DNA of 64,000 bases, taken from contig JACQZI010000010.1 in NCBI GenBank assembly GCA_016207825.1, positions 1 to 64,000 on the forward strand. Direction: 5' to 3'. The notes beneath the pieces are model-generated. The model had not been told where the DNA came from, searched no databases, and worked only from the letters and a program-made list of their open reading frames with translations. The stretch is from Planctomycetota bacterium. GTDB taxonomy: Bacteria > Planctomycetota > MHYJ01 > JACQXL01 > JACQZI01. Below, in pieces: positions 955 through 44,805 of this stretch (positions are counted from its first letter, which is position 1; each line of letters starts with the position of its first letter). A program made the position numbers and the translations under genes.

Positions 955-1566
955 ATGTTTGAAATAATCTCCAAAGGCGGATTTTTCATCTGGCCGCTCT
1001 TAGTTTGCTCGGTTATTTCACTTGCCGTGATAATCGACCGCTTTTTCGCCCTGCGCCGAGGCCGGCGCGAGTTTGCCGCGTTCGTAAAAGAATTTATTCC
1101 TACATTAGAAAAAAAAGGGATAAAGGAATCTATCGAATTCTGCAGGAAATCACGGGTTCCGCTGGCAAGAATCTACGAAAAAGGGCTGGAAGATTACCAA
1201 TCCAGGATGGATAAAGAACGGACCAAACAGATAATGCAGGAAATCGCCGGGCTGGAACTGCCGTCACTGGAACGGGGCCTGAAAATACTTTCCGTAATTG
1301 CCCATATTTCCCCGCTTTTGGGATTTCTGGGGACGGTCACAGGAATGATAAACGCCTTCCAAACGATACAATCGGCAACCGCTTCCGGAGAACCGGCCGG
1401 GCCGGGTATGCTTGCGGGCGGCATCTGGGAAGCCCTGATAACCACAGCGGTCGGATTAATCGTTGCCATACCCACCTATATCGCTTTTGCCTATTTTTCC
1501 AATGTGGTCGATAAAATGACCAATGATATGGAGCGGCACAGCCGCGAAATGCTGGAAAAATTATGA
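955..1566 (+). CDS. exbB: MotA/TolQ/ExbB-family proton channel
   Basis: Inner-membrane proton-channel subunit of the TolQ/ExbB family, which converts proton motive force into work across the envelope. The 203-residue protein has an N-terminal membrane segment (FIWPLLVCSVISLAVII), a cytoplasmic helical stretch, and the conserved core LLGFLGTVTGMINAF near residue 125 followed by a last membrane pair (ALITTAVGLIVAIPTYIAF). Its end overlaps the start of the next gene by four bases (ATGA), so the two are translationally coupled. No ExbD/TolR partner follows, which is unusual; the large VWA protein takes its place. No clear Shine-Dalgarno sequence precedes the ATG. Confidence 0.88.
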   Translation: MFEIISKGGFFIWPLLVCSVISLAVIIDRFFALRRGRREFAAFVKEFIPTLEKKGIKESIEFCRKSRVPLARIYEKGLEDYQSRMDKERTKQIMQEIAGLELPSLERGLKILSVIAHISPLLGFLGTVTGMINAFQTIQSATASGEPAGPGMLAGGIWEALITTAVGLIVAIPTYIAFAYFSNVVDKMTNDMERHSREMLEKL

Positions 1567-4124
1567 GTCCAGTCAGATTCGAACAGCCCTGGATATTACT
1601 CGCTTGCCTGCCTATCCTGGCAATTCTCTTTTACTTTTCGGGTAAAGGTACGGCGAAACGGGCAAGATGGTGGATTTCTTATACTATCCGCAGTATTATC
1701 GTGATGCTCCTCGTTATAATTTTGGGCGGGGCAAACTTCACGGTGAAAAGCGGAAATCTGTGCAGGATTTATTTGGTGGATAATTCGGGAAGCATTTTCC
1801 TTAACCAGATGGAAGCGCTCGATGCCATCCAGAACGATGCCAAAAAGCTAAAGCCCGATGACCTGGCAGGATTAATAGTTTTCGGAGGAAATGCCTCGGT
1901 AGAAATTGCTCCGGTAAAGGCATCCGAATTCAAGCCCAGCATACAGCTTAATTCATCTATTAACAAAAACCAAACCGATATAGAAAAAGCCCTGCGCACG
2001 GCCACGGAAACATTCCCTGAAGGTTACCAGAAAGAAATAATGCTCTTTTCAGACGGCCTGGAAACCACCGGGTATGCAAAAGAAATTATTCCGATGCTGG
2101 TAAACAGCAGTATCAAAGTAAATGCCATGCCTATCGGAGCCATGAATATAAGCGACCTGGCAATCAATGAATTTTCCCTGCCCGCTGTGACAACGATTAA
2201 CCAGCCGGTAAGCGGAAAAATAATCCTTTCGAGCACTGTCCAGGCAGAAGCATCACTCCATATTTACGAGACGGGAAAAAGCGTCAAACAGTGGAACAAT
2301 CTTAAATTAAACAAGGCTAATCCGTTAACGCTCTCTTTCGAACTTCCCCCTTCGGATACGGCCGTGCAGGAATTTGAGGCAGTTTTGAAGACGGATAATT
2401 TTAATGAACTATGCACCGTGAATAATACAGCCAGGGCCATAACCGCAAGGAAAGACAAGCCATCCATATTTTATTGCGCCGGCGGCCAACCCACGGCGGA
2501 GCTTGCGCAAATCATCAAAACAAACGGTTATTTCAGGCTTGACGAAAAGAAAACATTTGACAACCTGAATTTATACGATGGAATCATTATTGATAACCTA
2601 CCGCTTAATGAACTGAAAAAAGAAGAACTGGATGCGGTTAAGGATTTCGTGCACGGCGGCGGCGGGGTATTAATGATGGGAGGCAAAAAAAGTTATGCCC
2701 TAGGCGGCTATCAGGGTTCGATGCTGGAAGAAATCTCACCGGTCTGGTTCGCGCCTCCCCACAATATCGCCTTAGCAATAATTCTGGACCGTTCTGGAAG
2801 CATGGAAGAACCCATCACCGCGGACAGCAATAAGTGGTCGATCGCCCGGCAGGCCTTAAACGAAGCATTGAAACTCCTTTCCGGCAAGGACGAACTGGAA
2901 ATCATTATTTTCAACGACCGCTACGAGACCATACGTGCCTTACAGAAGATGTCGGATTTATCCGATGTAAACAACCTCCTCAAGCAAATCCAGCCGAACG
3001 GCTCAACGGTAATACTTGCGCCAATCAGGCAAAAGGCATTTAGCGACCTGGCAGGCACCGGAACTGCACGCAAGCATATCATACTCATTTCTGACGGCGC
3101 CAGCACAGGAGGGGAAACCAAAGAAGATGCGTTGAAGCTGGGCGGAGAACTTGCCGGGGCGGGAATAACCATCTCAACCATTGCCACAGGAGAAAGCGTT
3201 GATGAGGATTTCCTTAAAAACGTCACCAATAAAGAAACTAACGGGCGTTTTTACCGGTTGTCCGATTTCCTGACATTATCCGATTTCCTTAAAAACGACC
3301 TCTCCTACTACCAGGGATTATATTATGAAGGCGAAACAAATATCGAAATCATTGCCGAGAAGGAATGGTTCACGGGAATTAATGACCTGCCGCAAGTGGA
3401 TGGCTATAACCGGACGAGCCTCAAGGAAGACGCCGAATCAATCATAGAAACTAAGGGAAACCGCGAGCCGATACTTTCCGGACGGCATTACGGCAAAGGC
3501 AAGGTATTCGCCTTTGCATCAGCCCTTAATAAAGAATGGGCAAAAGAATGGATTGATTGGCAGAGCCTGGGAGAATTCTGGAATATTATTCTTTCCAAAA
3601 TGATTCCATCAGGGGCAAACGGAAAAACCGATTTATCCATCGCCCACCTGGTTTCCGAAGATAACACATTGAAAATAAATATCCGCAATGCCCAAAACGA
3701 ACACAACCTCCAATTCGATATTGAAATAGGAAAACAAGGGTTAAACATATCACGAAAACAGGCTGAACAAACTGCACCGGGCCAATATGAAGCCGCCATC
3801 CCCAACCTGGCCGAGGGCAGTTACACCTGCAACGTTTACCAAACGGCTGCCCGCAACACAGAATTAGTCAAAACGATCCCGTTTGTCATTCCGTACTCTT
3901 CCGAATGGAAAGAATTCGGACAGAACCATCCGTTACTTGCGGAGCTCGCGGAAAAAACCGCCGGCACGCTTGTAAAAGATATTTCGAACATTGAAATGCC
4001 CAAAAAACCGTCCGGGGAAACCTTTTCCGAGCACAGTCAAAATACGCTGATTTTAACGATAATCTTCATTTTAATCCTGGTCGATTTAATAATTAATTTG
4101 CCGTGGCTCACTTCCCGAGCCTGA
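1563..4124 (+). CDS. Membrane protein with two VWA domains and a glutamine-amidotransferase-like middle
   Basis: A large membrane-anchored protein of unknown exact role. Two N-terminal membrane helices (residues about 9-26 and 39-57) are followed by a first VWA domain with the metal-site motif DNSGS at residue 73. A middle region (about 300-385) resembles the amidotransferase-like fold that often accompanies these VWA proteins. A second VWA domain has DRSGSM near residue 407. A C-terminal membrane helix (about 825-847) ends the protein. The architecture matches BatA-like proteins common in Planctomycetota and Bacteroidota. It is coupled to the preceding ExbB-type channel, so a proton-motive-force-linked envelope function is a reasonable inference. 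Domain calls are secure; the function is not known. Confidence 0.8.
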   Translation: MSPVRFEQPWILLACLPILAILFYFSGKGTAKRARWWISYTIRSIIVMLLVIILGGANFTVKSGNLCRIYLVDNSGSIFLNQMEALDAIQNDAKKLKPDDLAGLIVFGGNASVEIAPVKASEFKPSIQLNSSINKNQTDIEKALRTATETFPEGYQKEIMLFSDGLETTGYAKEIIPMLVNSSIKVNAMPIGAMNISDLAINEFSLPAVTTINQPVSGKIILSSTVQAEASLHIYETGKSVKQWNNLKLNKANPLTLSFELPPSDTAVQEFEAVLKTDNFNELCTVNNTARAITARKDKPSIFYCAGGQPTAELAQIIKTNGYFRLDEKKTFDNLNLYDGIIIDNLPLNELKKEELDAVKDFVHGGGGVLMMGGKKSYALGGYQGSMLEEISPVWFAPPHNIALAIILDRSGSMEEPITADSNKWSIARQALNEALKLLSGKDELEIIIFNDRYETIRALQKMSDLSDVNNLLKQIQPNGSTVILAPIRQKAFSDLAGTGTARKHIILISDGASTGGETKEDALKLGGELAGAGITISTIATGESVDEDFLKNVTNKETNGRFYRLSDFLTLSDFLKNDLSYYQGLYYEGETNIEIIAEKEWFTGINDLPQVDGYNRTSLKEDAESIIETKGNREPILSGRHYGKGKVFAFASALNKEWAKEWIDWQSLGEFWNIILSKMIPSGANGKTDLSIAHLVSEDNTLKINIRNAQNEHNLQFDIEIGKQGLNISRKQAEQTAPGQYEAAIPNLAEGSYTCNVYQTAARNTELVKTIPFVIPYSSEWKEFGQNHPLLAELAEKTAGTLVKDISNIEMPKKPSGETFSEHSQNTLILTIIFILILVDLIINLPWLTSRA

Positions 4125-7736: not shown

Positions 7737-8357
7737 ATGGTAATAAAAAACAACGGTAACGGTTCGGTCCTTGATACGCGCGTTTTGGTCTTAAACAGGC
7801 TGTTTACGGCGATAAAGATTATCACTGTCCGGCGTGCCTTTAAAATGCTCTATAAAAACACCGCAGAGGTGGTGGCCCAGAATAACGGGTCGTTTGCAAC
7901 ATACGATTTTATCAGGTGGATAGACCAGCCGACCAACGGTTCGCGTGAGGACATCATACATACTCCATCCAGGAAACTGAAAGTTCCAAGAGTAATCCGC
8001 CTCTTGAGCTATGACAAACTTCCCAAGCAGGAAGTAAGATTCAGCCGTAAAAGCATTATGGCAAGAGATGAATACCGCTGCCAATACTGCGGGAAAAAGC
8101 TTGCCGCCACCAAATTGAGCATTGACCATATCATCCCCCGCTCGCGCGGAGGCAGTTCCAACTGGGATAACCTGGTCGCCTGTTGCAGTAAATGCAATAC
8201 AAAAAAAGGTGGGAAAACGCCCAAGGAAGCCCGTATGAAGCTTATCCACAAACCAGCGGCGCCTACGATGACACCGCTGTTTTCAGCTCACCTGAAAGAT
8301 AAAAAATACACCTTCTGGAAAGAATTCGTCACGGAAAAGACCCGGATTAGTTTTTAA
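7737..8357 (+). CDS. HNH endonuclease
   Basis: HNH-family nuclease of 206 residues. The N-terminal part ([24 protein letters not shown]) is typical of the widespread stand-alone HNH proteins of this group. The nuclease core at about residues 105-160 has the zinc pair CQYCG, the catalytic [10 protein letters not shown], the asparagine of NWDNLVACC, and the second zinc pair CSKCN. The role of this family in cells is not settled; it is usually chromosomal and conserved rather than a homing intron enzyme. It lies 15 bases after hisC and is probably co-transcribed with it. Confidence 0.88.
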
Positions 8358-8587
8358 ACTGATTGCGTTTAAAAACCTGCTCATCGCTCGCGCTCAGTTT
8401 CCAAGCACCCCTTGCACGCTTGCGTGAAAGGACTTTACGCCCGCCCCGTGTTTTCATGCGTGCGCGAAACCCGCATTTCCTTATCCGTTTTAAATTGTGT
8501 GGCCTGTAAGTTAAACTCATATTTACTCCTCCTATTCATTATCGGTAAAAACCGTATAAAACAAGATAGTGTCACCCATCCCGCGCC
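8358..8587. other. Gene-free segment with short palindromes
   Basis: No coding signal. It contains GC-rich short inverted repeats (for example CACGC-tt-GCGTG near 8417) and a CCTGTAAGTTAAAC motif near 8503 related to the TTACAGG-type repeats elsewhere in the window. Confidence 0.5.
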
Positions 8588-8759
8588 TGCGTGGGGCGGG
8601 AGTTGAACCCGCAAGCCTAAAGGCATCCCGATAAAAATGGGCGGAAGAGGACTTGAACCTCCATCCCTTTCGGGACAAGATCCTAAATCTTGCGCGTCTG
8701 CCAGTTCCGCCATCCGCCCATTTTTCATCGGGACGGTCTGCCAGTTCCACCACCCACGC
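8588..8759 (-). tRNA. Split tRNA-Leu-like body that encloses a complete tRNA-Leu gene in its anticodon arm
   Basis: On the minus strand the outer 5' part has acceptor GCGTGGG and a leucine-type D-arm (GTGGAACTGGCAGAC). The outer 3' part has a small class II variable hairpin (GCC-TTTA-GGC), a T-arm GCGGG-TTCAACT-CCCGC and acceptor CCCACGC plus discriminator A. All stems match perfectly. In place of an anticodon loop, the two halves continue as complementary strands (GTCCCGATGAAAAAT against ATTTTTATCGGGAT) that lead straight into the acceptor stem of the inner tRNA-Leu at 8638-8719. The outer body therefore has no anticodon of its own. It could be a tRNA interrupted by a tRNA-bearing insertion, or a stable composite RNA. 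Confidence 0.75.
8638..8719 (-). tRNA. tRNA-Leu (anticodon TAG), nested inside another tRNA-like body
   Basis: An 82-base class II tRNA. The acceptor GGGCGGA pairs with TCCGCCC. The D-arm reads GCGGAACTGGCAGAC. The anticodon stem AAGAT/ATCTT encloses loop TTAGG, read as anticodon TAG. The variable arm is CCC-gaaa-GGG and the T-loop TTCAAGT. The acceptor helix is extended outward by AAAAAT/ATTTTT into the enclosing tRNA-like body. Confidence 0.92.
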
Positions 8760-8839
8760 AGGTGCGGGACGCAATATTATTCTTTCTCTCTCCCTTTAAC
8801 TCTTAAACTTTGCAACCTGTAACTTTTAAACTCCCAGTC

Positions 8840-8913
8840 TACCCCCGGTGTGACTCGAACACACAGCCTACGGATTAGAAATCCGTTGCTCTATCCATTT
8901 GAGCTACGGGGGC
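8840..8913 (-). tRNA. tRNA-Arg (anticodon TCT)
   Basis: A 74-base tRNA with acceptor GCCCCCG/CGGGGGT, anticodon stem CGGAT/ATCCG with loop TTCTA around anticodon TCT, and a standard T-arm (TTCGAGT). CCA is not encoded. Confidence 0.94.
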
Positions 8914-44708: not shown

Positions 44709-44805
44709 TGGCGGAGGCGTGTAGGAATCGAACCTACCTGTCCCGCTTTTGGCAAGACACGCTGGCTTTGAAGGCCAGGAGAGCCACCAGACCCCATTCA
44801 CCTCC
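44709..44805 (-). tRNA. selC: tRNA-Sec (anticodon TCA)
   Basis: A 97-base tRNA including encoded CCA (44709-44711). The acceptor GGAGGTGA pairs along eight positions (one A-A) with ACGCCTCC. The anticodon stem CTGGC/GCCAG surrounds TTCAA, giving TCA. The variable arm is very long (GTGTCTTGCCAAAAGC plus GGGAC) and the T-arm GTAGG-TTCGATT-CCTAC is standard. It is adjacent to selB, which confirms the identity. Confidence 0.95.

Follow-up and report, generated by a model that had tools for sequence, protein, structure and literature searches.

A tRNA-Leu(TAG) gene in place of the anticodon arm of another tRNA-Leu: probable in situ replacement of an essential tRNA gene in a planctomycete

How does a complete tRNA gene come to stand inside another one? 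In the window (the whole stretch of 64,000 nucleotides that was analysed, from a Planctomycetota bacterium), the minus strand carries a complete tRNA-Leu(TAG) gene enclosed by two halves of a second tRNA-Leu, at the position where the anticodon arm of that second tRNA belongs. A sequence-only reading of this DNA had offered three explanations: a natural scaffold, a tRNA gene split by a tRNA-carrying insertion, and a decoy for processing enzymes. The nested arrangement that it described is real, with small corrections. The inner gene was called by both ARAGORN and Rfam, and the two halves around it are homologous to an uninterrupted tRNA-Leu in G006, a genome of the same order and another family. 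The features of the locus, in the direction of transcription of the inner gene, are as follows.

8840..8913, minus strand: tRNA-Arg(TCT), the upstream synteny marker (ARAGORN, Rfam)
8760..8772, minus strand: GCGTCCCGCACCT, left-hand side of an older TCCCGC hairpin that encloses the outer gene (inverted repeat I1, 94%)
8734..8759, minus strand: 5' half of the outer tRNA-Leu (acceptor strand and D-arm minus one base), from alignment with G006
8721..8733, minus strand: 5' arm of the inverted repeat, TCCCGATGAAAAA, replacing the outer anticodon arm (TCCCGAT..ATCGGGA palindrome)
8638..8719, minus strand: inner tRNA-Leu(TAG), complete, without encoded CCA (ARAGORN, Rfam)
8626..8637, minus strand: 3' arm of the inverted repeat, TTTTTATCGGGA (inverted-repeat pairing)
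8588..8625, minus strand: 3' half of the outer tRNA-Leu (variable arm, T-arm, acceptor strand, A73), from alignment with G006
8569..8587, minus strand: GGCGCGGGATGGGTGACAC, probably the right part of the older hairpin together with a possible variable-arm remnant
8347..8520, minus strand: rpmH (ribosomal protein L34), the downstream synteny marker (protein sequence read by eye)

The inner gene matched Rfam RF00005 with 54.2 bits (E 6.9e-9). It is the only TAG tRNA-Leu gene of the window genome (G000), which has one further tRNA-Leu gene each for CAA, CAG, GAG, and TAA. Under established decoding rules, the inner gene is required for reading CUA, and the outer gene is not. The surroundings of the nested locus yielded no promoter-like site, and transcription of the inner tRNA is therefore assumed. 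Because ARAGORN and Rfam report the inner gene alone at the nested locus and not the outer one, nesting of this kind is easily missed. The 172-nt composite folded with −85.8 kcal/mol (z −5.4). The helix joining the two tRNA bodies (TCCCGAT-g-AAAAA paired with TTTTTATCGGGA) consists of 12 Watson-Crick pairs with one bulged G, rather than the roughly 14 pairs with a few G-U that had been proposed, and it does run without a break into the inner acceptor stem, with which it is flush. The predicted pairing between the leader and trailer of the inner tRNA (−25.2 kcal/mol, versus a median of −6.4 kcal/mol) was the strongest of the 45 scored tRNAs in the genome.

The outer body had been described as intact in its acceptor stem, D-arm, variable hairpin, and T-arm. 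This holds for the acceptor stem (7 of 7 pairs), the T-stem (5 of 5), and the variable hairpin (3 bp), but not for the D-arm, where one D-stem base has been deleted relative to G006 (GACACG to GACCG). The anticodon loop is missing, as had been stated, but the loss is larger and takes in the entire arm (positions 27-43, 17 nt). When the inner gene was removed in silico, ARAGORN called a tRNA spanning the junction. The 5' half was identical to the uninterrupted tRNA-Leu of G006 over 35 nt (100%, E 2e-11), of which 11 nt are upstream flank, and the 3' half matched it at 92% over 39 nt (E 1.5e-9), with three substitutions that all fall within the variable-arm loop. This homology rules out a chance fold as the source of the outer body. 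In the same alignment, no compensatory changes were seen in the outer stems. Between the window and G006, identity was 93.8% for the outer body, compared with 86.5% for the neighboring tRNA-Arg and about 61% for rpmH. The outer body is therefore not visibly decayed here, which requires either a recent insertion or a recently shared outer gene. Its perfect pairing, which had been read as an argument against simple decay, is better explained by recent insertion, and the outer body has been lost or wrecked in parallel cases from Kiritimatiellaeota and Bacteroidota, described below.

We turn to the same locus in related genomes, where the gene order tRNA-Arg(TCT), tRNA-Leu, rpmH is common to the window, G006, and G004. 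The gene between tRNA-Arg(TCT) and rpmH in G006 is an uninterrupted tRNA-Leu(TAG) of the outer type. G004 and G007 carry a plain inner-type gene at rpmH, also TAG, and G005 has a plain inner-type tRNA-Leu(TAG) at a locus other than rpmH. None of the close relatives in the set had the nested state; the single genome of the same genus (56% complete) gave no match. Absence from close relatives and a lack of compensatory changes in the outer stems had been named beforehand as evidence against the composite. This expectation is borne out in part, with the outer gene uninterrupted in G006, plain inner-type genes in G004, G005, and G007, and no compensatory change relative to G006. Of the three earlier suggestions, that of a tRNA split by a tRNA-carrying insertion is right.

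An older layer is visible around the outer gene. The 13 nt of GCGTCCCGCACCT are found identically beside the intact outer gene of G006, where they adjoin remnants of an inner-type tRNA-Leu. These remnants are GGGCGGATGGCGG..AATTGGCAGAC upstream and TCTCGCCCA downstream of the intact outer-type gene, the 3' remnant being only 9 nt long. The window genome keeps GCGTCCCGCACCT plus a matching AGGCGCGGGATGGG on the opposite side. GCGTCCCGCACCT is probably a remnant of a still older host tRNA-Leu, and the locus probably held an inner-type gene that was invaded by an outer-type gene and then invaded again by an inner-type gene. As a separate observation, two loci upstream of a gene reading as clpB, L033 (G003) and L039 (G005), differ in that one has an outer-type and the other an inner-type tRNA-Leu(TAG), apparently another in-place exchange of tRNA-Leu.

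One genome per GTDB species was scanned for a tRNA-Leu D-arm followed 8-38 nt on by a second D-arm, and 90 stretches matched. On reading, most were ordinary tRNAs located after a chance GGCAGAC or a 5' tRNA fragment, and about nine were kept. Full nesting was found in Bacteroidota (L089), Elusimicrobiota (L090), Patescibacteria (L092, L132, and L133), and Kiritimatiellaeota (L145), and half-decayed nesting was found at L096 and L168. L132 and L133 have further hairpins in other loops in addition to the nesting. The outer anticodon stem of most Leu cases reads TCCCG/CGGGA, and there the palindrome stands exactly in place of the arm. A class-I pattern applied to 380 genomes of Patescibacteria, the phylum of L132, yielded nested tRNA-Thr genes at L306 and L304 and a half case at L303. 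At L306 (about 1474-1650, plus strand) a tRNA-Thr(CGT) lies in a tRNA-Thr(CGT), and at L304 (minus strand, around 1450-1560) a tRNA-Thr(TGT) lies in a tRNA-Thr(TGT); both have CCCGC-type arms and an insert between loop positions 35 and 36. These productive searches covered the same-sense arrangement. A pattern for the inverted orientation, which fits plain T-arms too, returned normal tRNAs and unrelated matches from the 380 Patescibacteria genomes. Excise-and-join searching with wide trimming gave 73 real versus 56 control matches, a high background with dense tRNA arrays, and narrow trimming alone was trusted. In all, the arrangement of a tRNA gene inside its own predecessor is found in at least five bacterial phyla (that of the window plus four). 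The open-access literature that was searched gave no account of one tRNA gene nested within the anticodon arm of another.

The fate of the outer gene can be followed in two of these phyla. In Kiritimatiellaeota, L278 has an uninterrupted outer gene, TAG, reading GACACG, CAAGACTTAGGATCTTG, and TGCCGCAAGG in succession, with the same upstream sequence as L145/L273. At L145/L273, the arm is exactly replaced, TAG in TAG, by TCCCGC..inner TAG gene..GCGGGA between GACACG and TGCCGCAAG. The outer 3' half is gone at L168/L274, and the outer gene is reduced to eroded 5' halves of 73-75% identity at L275 and L276. All four loci keep an inner gene of 93-100% identity, and flanking synteny is common to L273, L274, and L276, with L275 at another place. 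In Bacteroidota, upstream of a gene reading as tig, the outer tRNA-Leu is uninterrupted at L348, TAG. L089/L329 have 100% identical halves and, where the arm was, an armed tRNA-Leu(TAG); L330 is nested with a TCCCGAT palindrome overwriting the D-arm too, and L332-L336 have the inner gene with small outer remnants or none. Both series are steps of a replacement, from an intact outer gene to the nested state, then to loss or erosion of an outer half, and finally to the inner gene only. They show an outer body that is dispensable.

The inner and outer anticodons were the same in all seven cases in which the outer one, read directly or taken from an uninterrupted relative, is known, one of them being only probable. 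The matches are TAG in the window, TAG in Kiritimatiellaeota, TAG in Bacteroidota, CAG in L092, CGT in L306, TGT in L304, and, as the probable case, TAG in G006. For the six firm cases, chance agreement would be about (1/5)^4 × (1/3)^2 = 2e-4, counting five Leu and three Thr anticodons and leaving other isotypes out. Most simply, a newcomer that disrupts an essential single-copy tRNA gene would persist only when it supplies that same function itself. Alternatively, the match may come from sequence targeting instead of survival.

The anatomy of the locus, the uninterrupted gene of the relative, the uniqueness of the inner gene, the recurrence in at least five phyla, the identity of the anticodons, and the erosion of the outer gene in two series make it very probable that an essential tRNA-Leu(TAG) was replaced in situ by a divergent, palindrome-armed tRNA-Leu(TAG) in its anticodon arm. 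The armed newcomer would have taken the exact place of the 17-nt anticodon arm of the resident, presumably in one step, destroying the resident anticodon and bringing a working substitute to the same site. Its arms may be derived from TCCCG palindromic repeats of the genome. The inner tRNA would now do all decoding by the UAG anticodon, probably being transcribed and then processed by the usual tRNA enzymes, and the outer body without an anticodon would be a dead remnant, expected to erode. Such erosion is seen in the parallel series and not within the lineage of the window, for which the set has no nested close relative. An in-place swap of an essential tRNA gene would be an unsuspected route. 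tRNA genes are usually treated as slowly evolving and vertically inherited, and the nested loci appear to catch the replacement of a single copy stage by stage. Takeover through the anticodon arm would explain tRNA turnover without a long redundant intermediate, and it would leave a diagnostic scar. The nested loci also point to a process that swaps hairpins in bacterial DNA.

We examined the palindromes that form the arms. The window genome has 37 copies of TCCCGAT..ATCGGGA, versus 0 for the reversed-pattern control. TCCCGC..GCGGGA was above the control in every tested nesting genome (e.g., 122 versus 7 and 199 versus 5) and numbered 15 versus 6 in G004, which has no nesting. Since the copy numbers exceed the controls, the arms resemble dispersed genomic palindromes, and they fit a genome-dispersed family of palindromic repeats (REP/RPE/MITE-like). 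Palindromes without cargo also replace tRNA arms in redundant fragments of tRNA-Val (L179) and tRNA-Ala (L308). A wide occurrence of TCCCG insertions in tRNA-Leu genes of the phylum was considered and rejected, as among 392 genomes the pattern occurred only in the window genome and in one false match within a coding sequence.

Such arms raise the possibility of mobility. We hold only tentatively the broader view that palindrome-armed tRNA cassettes are minimal mobile elements across bacterial phyla, inserting into the anticodon arms of resident tRNAs and surviving through the same specificity, with serial takeovers (here probably L1 > L2 > L1). That the cassette is an active mobile element in its own right, or one driven in trans by a nuclease or transposase, and homes to anticodon arms of the same specificity is rather doubtful and would add to the takeover, not replace it. 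The same target subsite, the similar TCCCG/CCCGC arms in several phyla, the same anticodon each time, and the abundance of such palindromes in the genomes all fit active homing. However, survival of an insertion into an essential gene would select for the same anticodon too, no target-site duplication was seen by eye at the outer junctions, and no transposase was identified. No nuclease or transposase is consistently linked to the nested loci; a six-frame motif scan of these loci for a homing-nuclease element found a GIY-YIG ORF beside L303 only. The HNH gene adjoining rpmH in the window (7737-8357) is probably an ordinary neighbor.

The in situ takeover resembles known insertions into tRNA genes in part. 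Genomic islands and phages integrate into tRNA genes, and an essential tRNA that is split has its function supplied by the incoming DNA (Islander, PMC4383910), with tRNA gene fragments remaining (PMC9897764). Here, as in such integration, including its anticodon-loop sublocation, the target is split, the function comes from the insert, and tRNA fragments are left. In contrast, the insert here, at about 110 nt, leaves no room for an integrase and carries none; it brings a whole different tRNA, the outer gene is not rebuilt, and both outer halves remain around the insert. Rickettsia palindromic elements, REP sequences, and MITEs are likewise genome-abundant hairpin repeats found inside genes, and the cassette arms resemble them, but the insertion here takes the exact place of an existing hairpin and bears a tRNA gene within its loop. 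tRNA introns (bulge-helix-bulge or group I) are also inserted in the anticodon loop or arm. In this case, however, the outer arm (27-43) is replaced, so that removal of the insert leaves no original anticodon, a splicing element is lacking, and the functional tRNA is the insert itself. The Rfam scan of the window returned tRNAs and a tRNA-Sec only, with no group I or other known intron RNA.

Engineered tRNA scaffolds have the same topology, with an RNA mounted on a tRNA anticodon stem. A natural scaffold or selected composite RNA, in which the outer cloverleaf persists because it presents or stabilizes the inner tRNA, is nevertheless improbable. The perfect outer acceptor and T stems and the high stability of the composite (the z score given above) are in its favor, and the unusual conservation of the outer sequence relative to G006 is its strongest remaining point. 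However, the outer halves are deleted, overwritten, or eroded in both series, including sister lineages of the parallel cases, while the inner gene stays intact; the stems lack compensatory changes, and the arrangement is absent from relatives. There is no sign that the outer body here is selected or used, and these observations speak against the scaffold that had been suggested. A decoy for processing enzymes fared no better, given the absence of the arrangement from relatives and the loss or wreckage of the outer body in the parallels.

It is very improbable that the inner tRNA is excised like an intron, with the outer halves joined again to form a second functional tRNA. The phage contigs L191 and L412 and L306 of Patescibacteria keep complete outer loop halves, and removal of the insert there gives a canonical tRNA. 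In the window, however, this reading is refuted by the missing outer anticodon arm, without which the joined halves could not decode, and all Leu isoacceptors are present elsewhere in the genome. An assembly or binning artefact, which a draft genome of 42 contigs might suggest, is scarcely credible. The locus is embedded in a contig of 235 kb, its flanking synteny is conserved, and unrelated public assemblies from several phyla show the same anatomy.

The phage contigs (IMG/VR) show nesting of a different kind. At L191 (6108-6258, plus strand, IMGVR_UViG_3300013947_000465), a CCA-bearing tRNA-Asn(GTT) lies exactly between U36 and A37 of a canonical tRNA-Lys(UUU), and joining the flanks gives a perfect tRNA-Lys(TTT). 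At L412 (about 1130-1290, plus strand), and in the same way at L418, a CCA-bearing tRNA lies in the anticodon loop of tRNA-Val(TAC), where excision restores CTTACAC. Weaker, similar viral cases are L397 (524-597) and L402 (3557-3632). In these phage cases, the isotypes of the two tRNAs differ and palindrome arms are missing; L191 and L412 regain a canonical 7-nt loop on excision. As far as the sequences indicate, phage tRNA-in-tRNA nesting is a second, CCA-bearing kind, distinct from the palindrome-armed takeover.

Several minor observations were made on other tRNA sequences. A 5' fragment of tRNA-Val in the window genome (G000:C7:298292-298309, L179), about 270 nt upstream of a functional tRNA-Val(GAC), is split by the palindrome TCCCGATAGCTATCGGGA. 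At L308 (about 1500, reverse strand), a tRNA-Ala remnant adjoining an intact tRNA-Ala has its anticodon arm swapped for TCCCGATGGTCATCGGGA without cargo. GIY-YIG ORFs adjoin tRNA-like sequences whose anticodon arm is altered or broken at L321 (both copies) and at L303 (1700-1950), and the L321 unit is tandemly duplicated with a spacing of 322 nt. The tRNA-Sec of the window is located at 44713-44805 on the minus strand, indicating that the organism probably makes selenoproteins.
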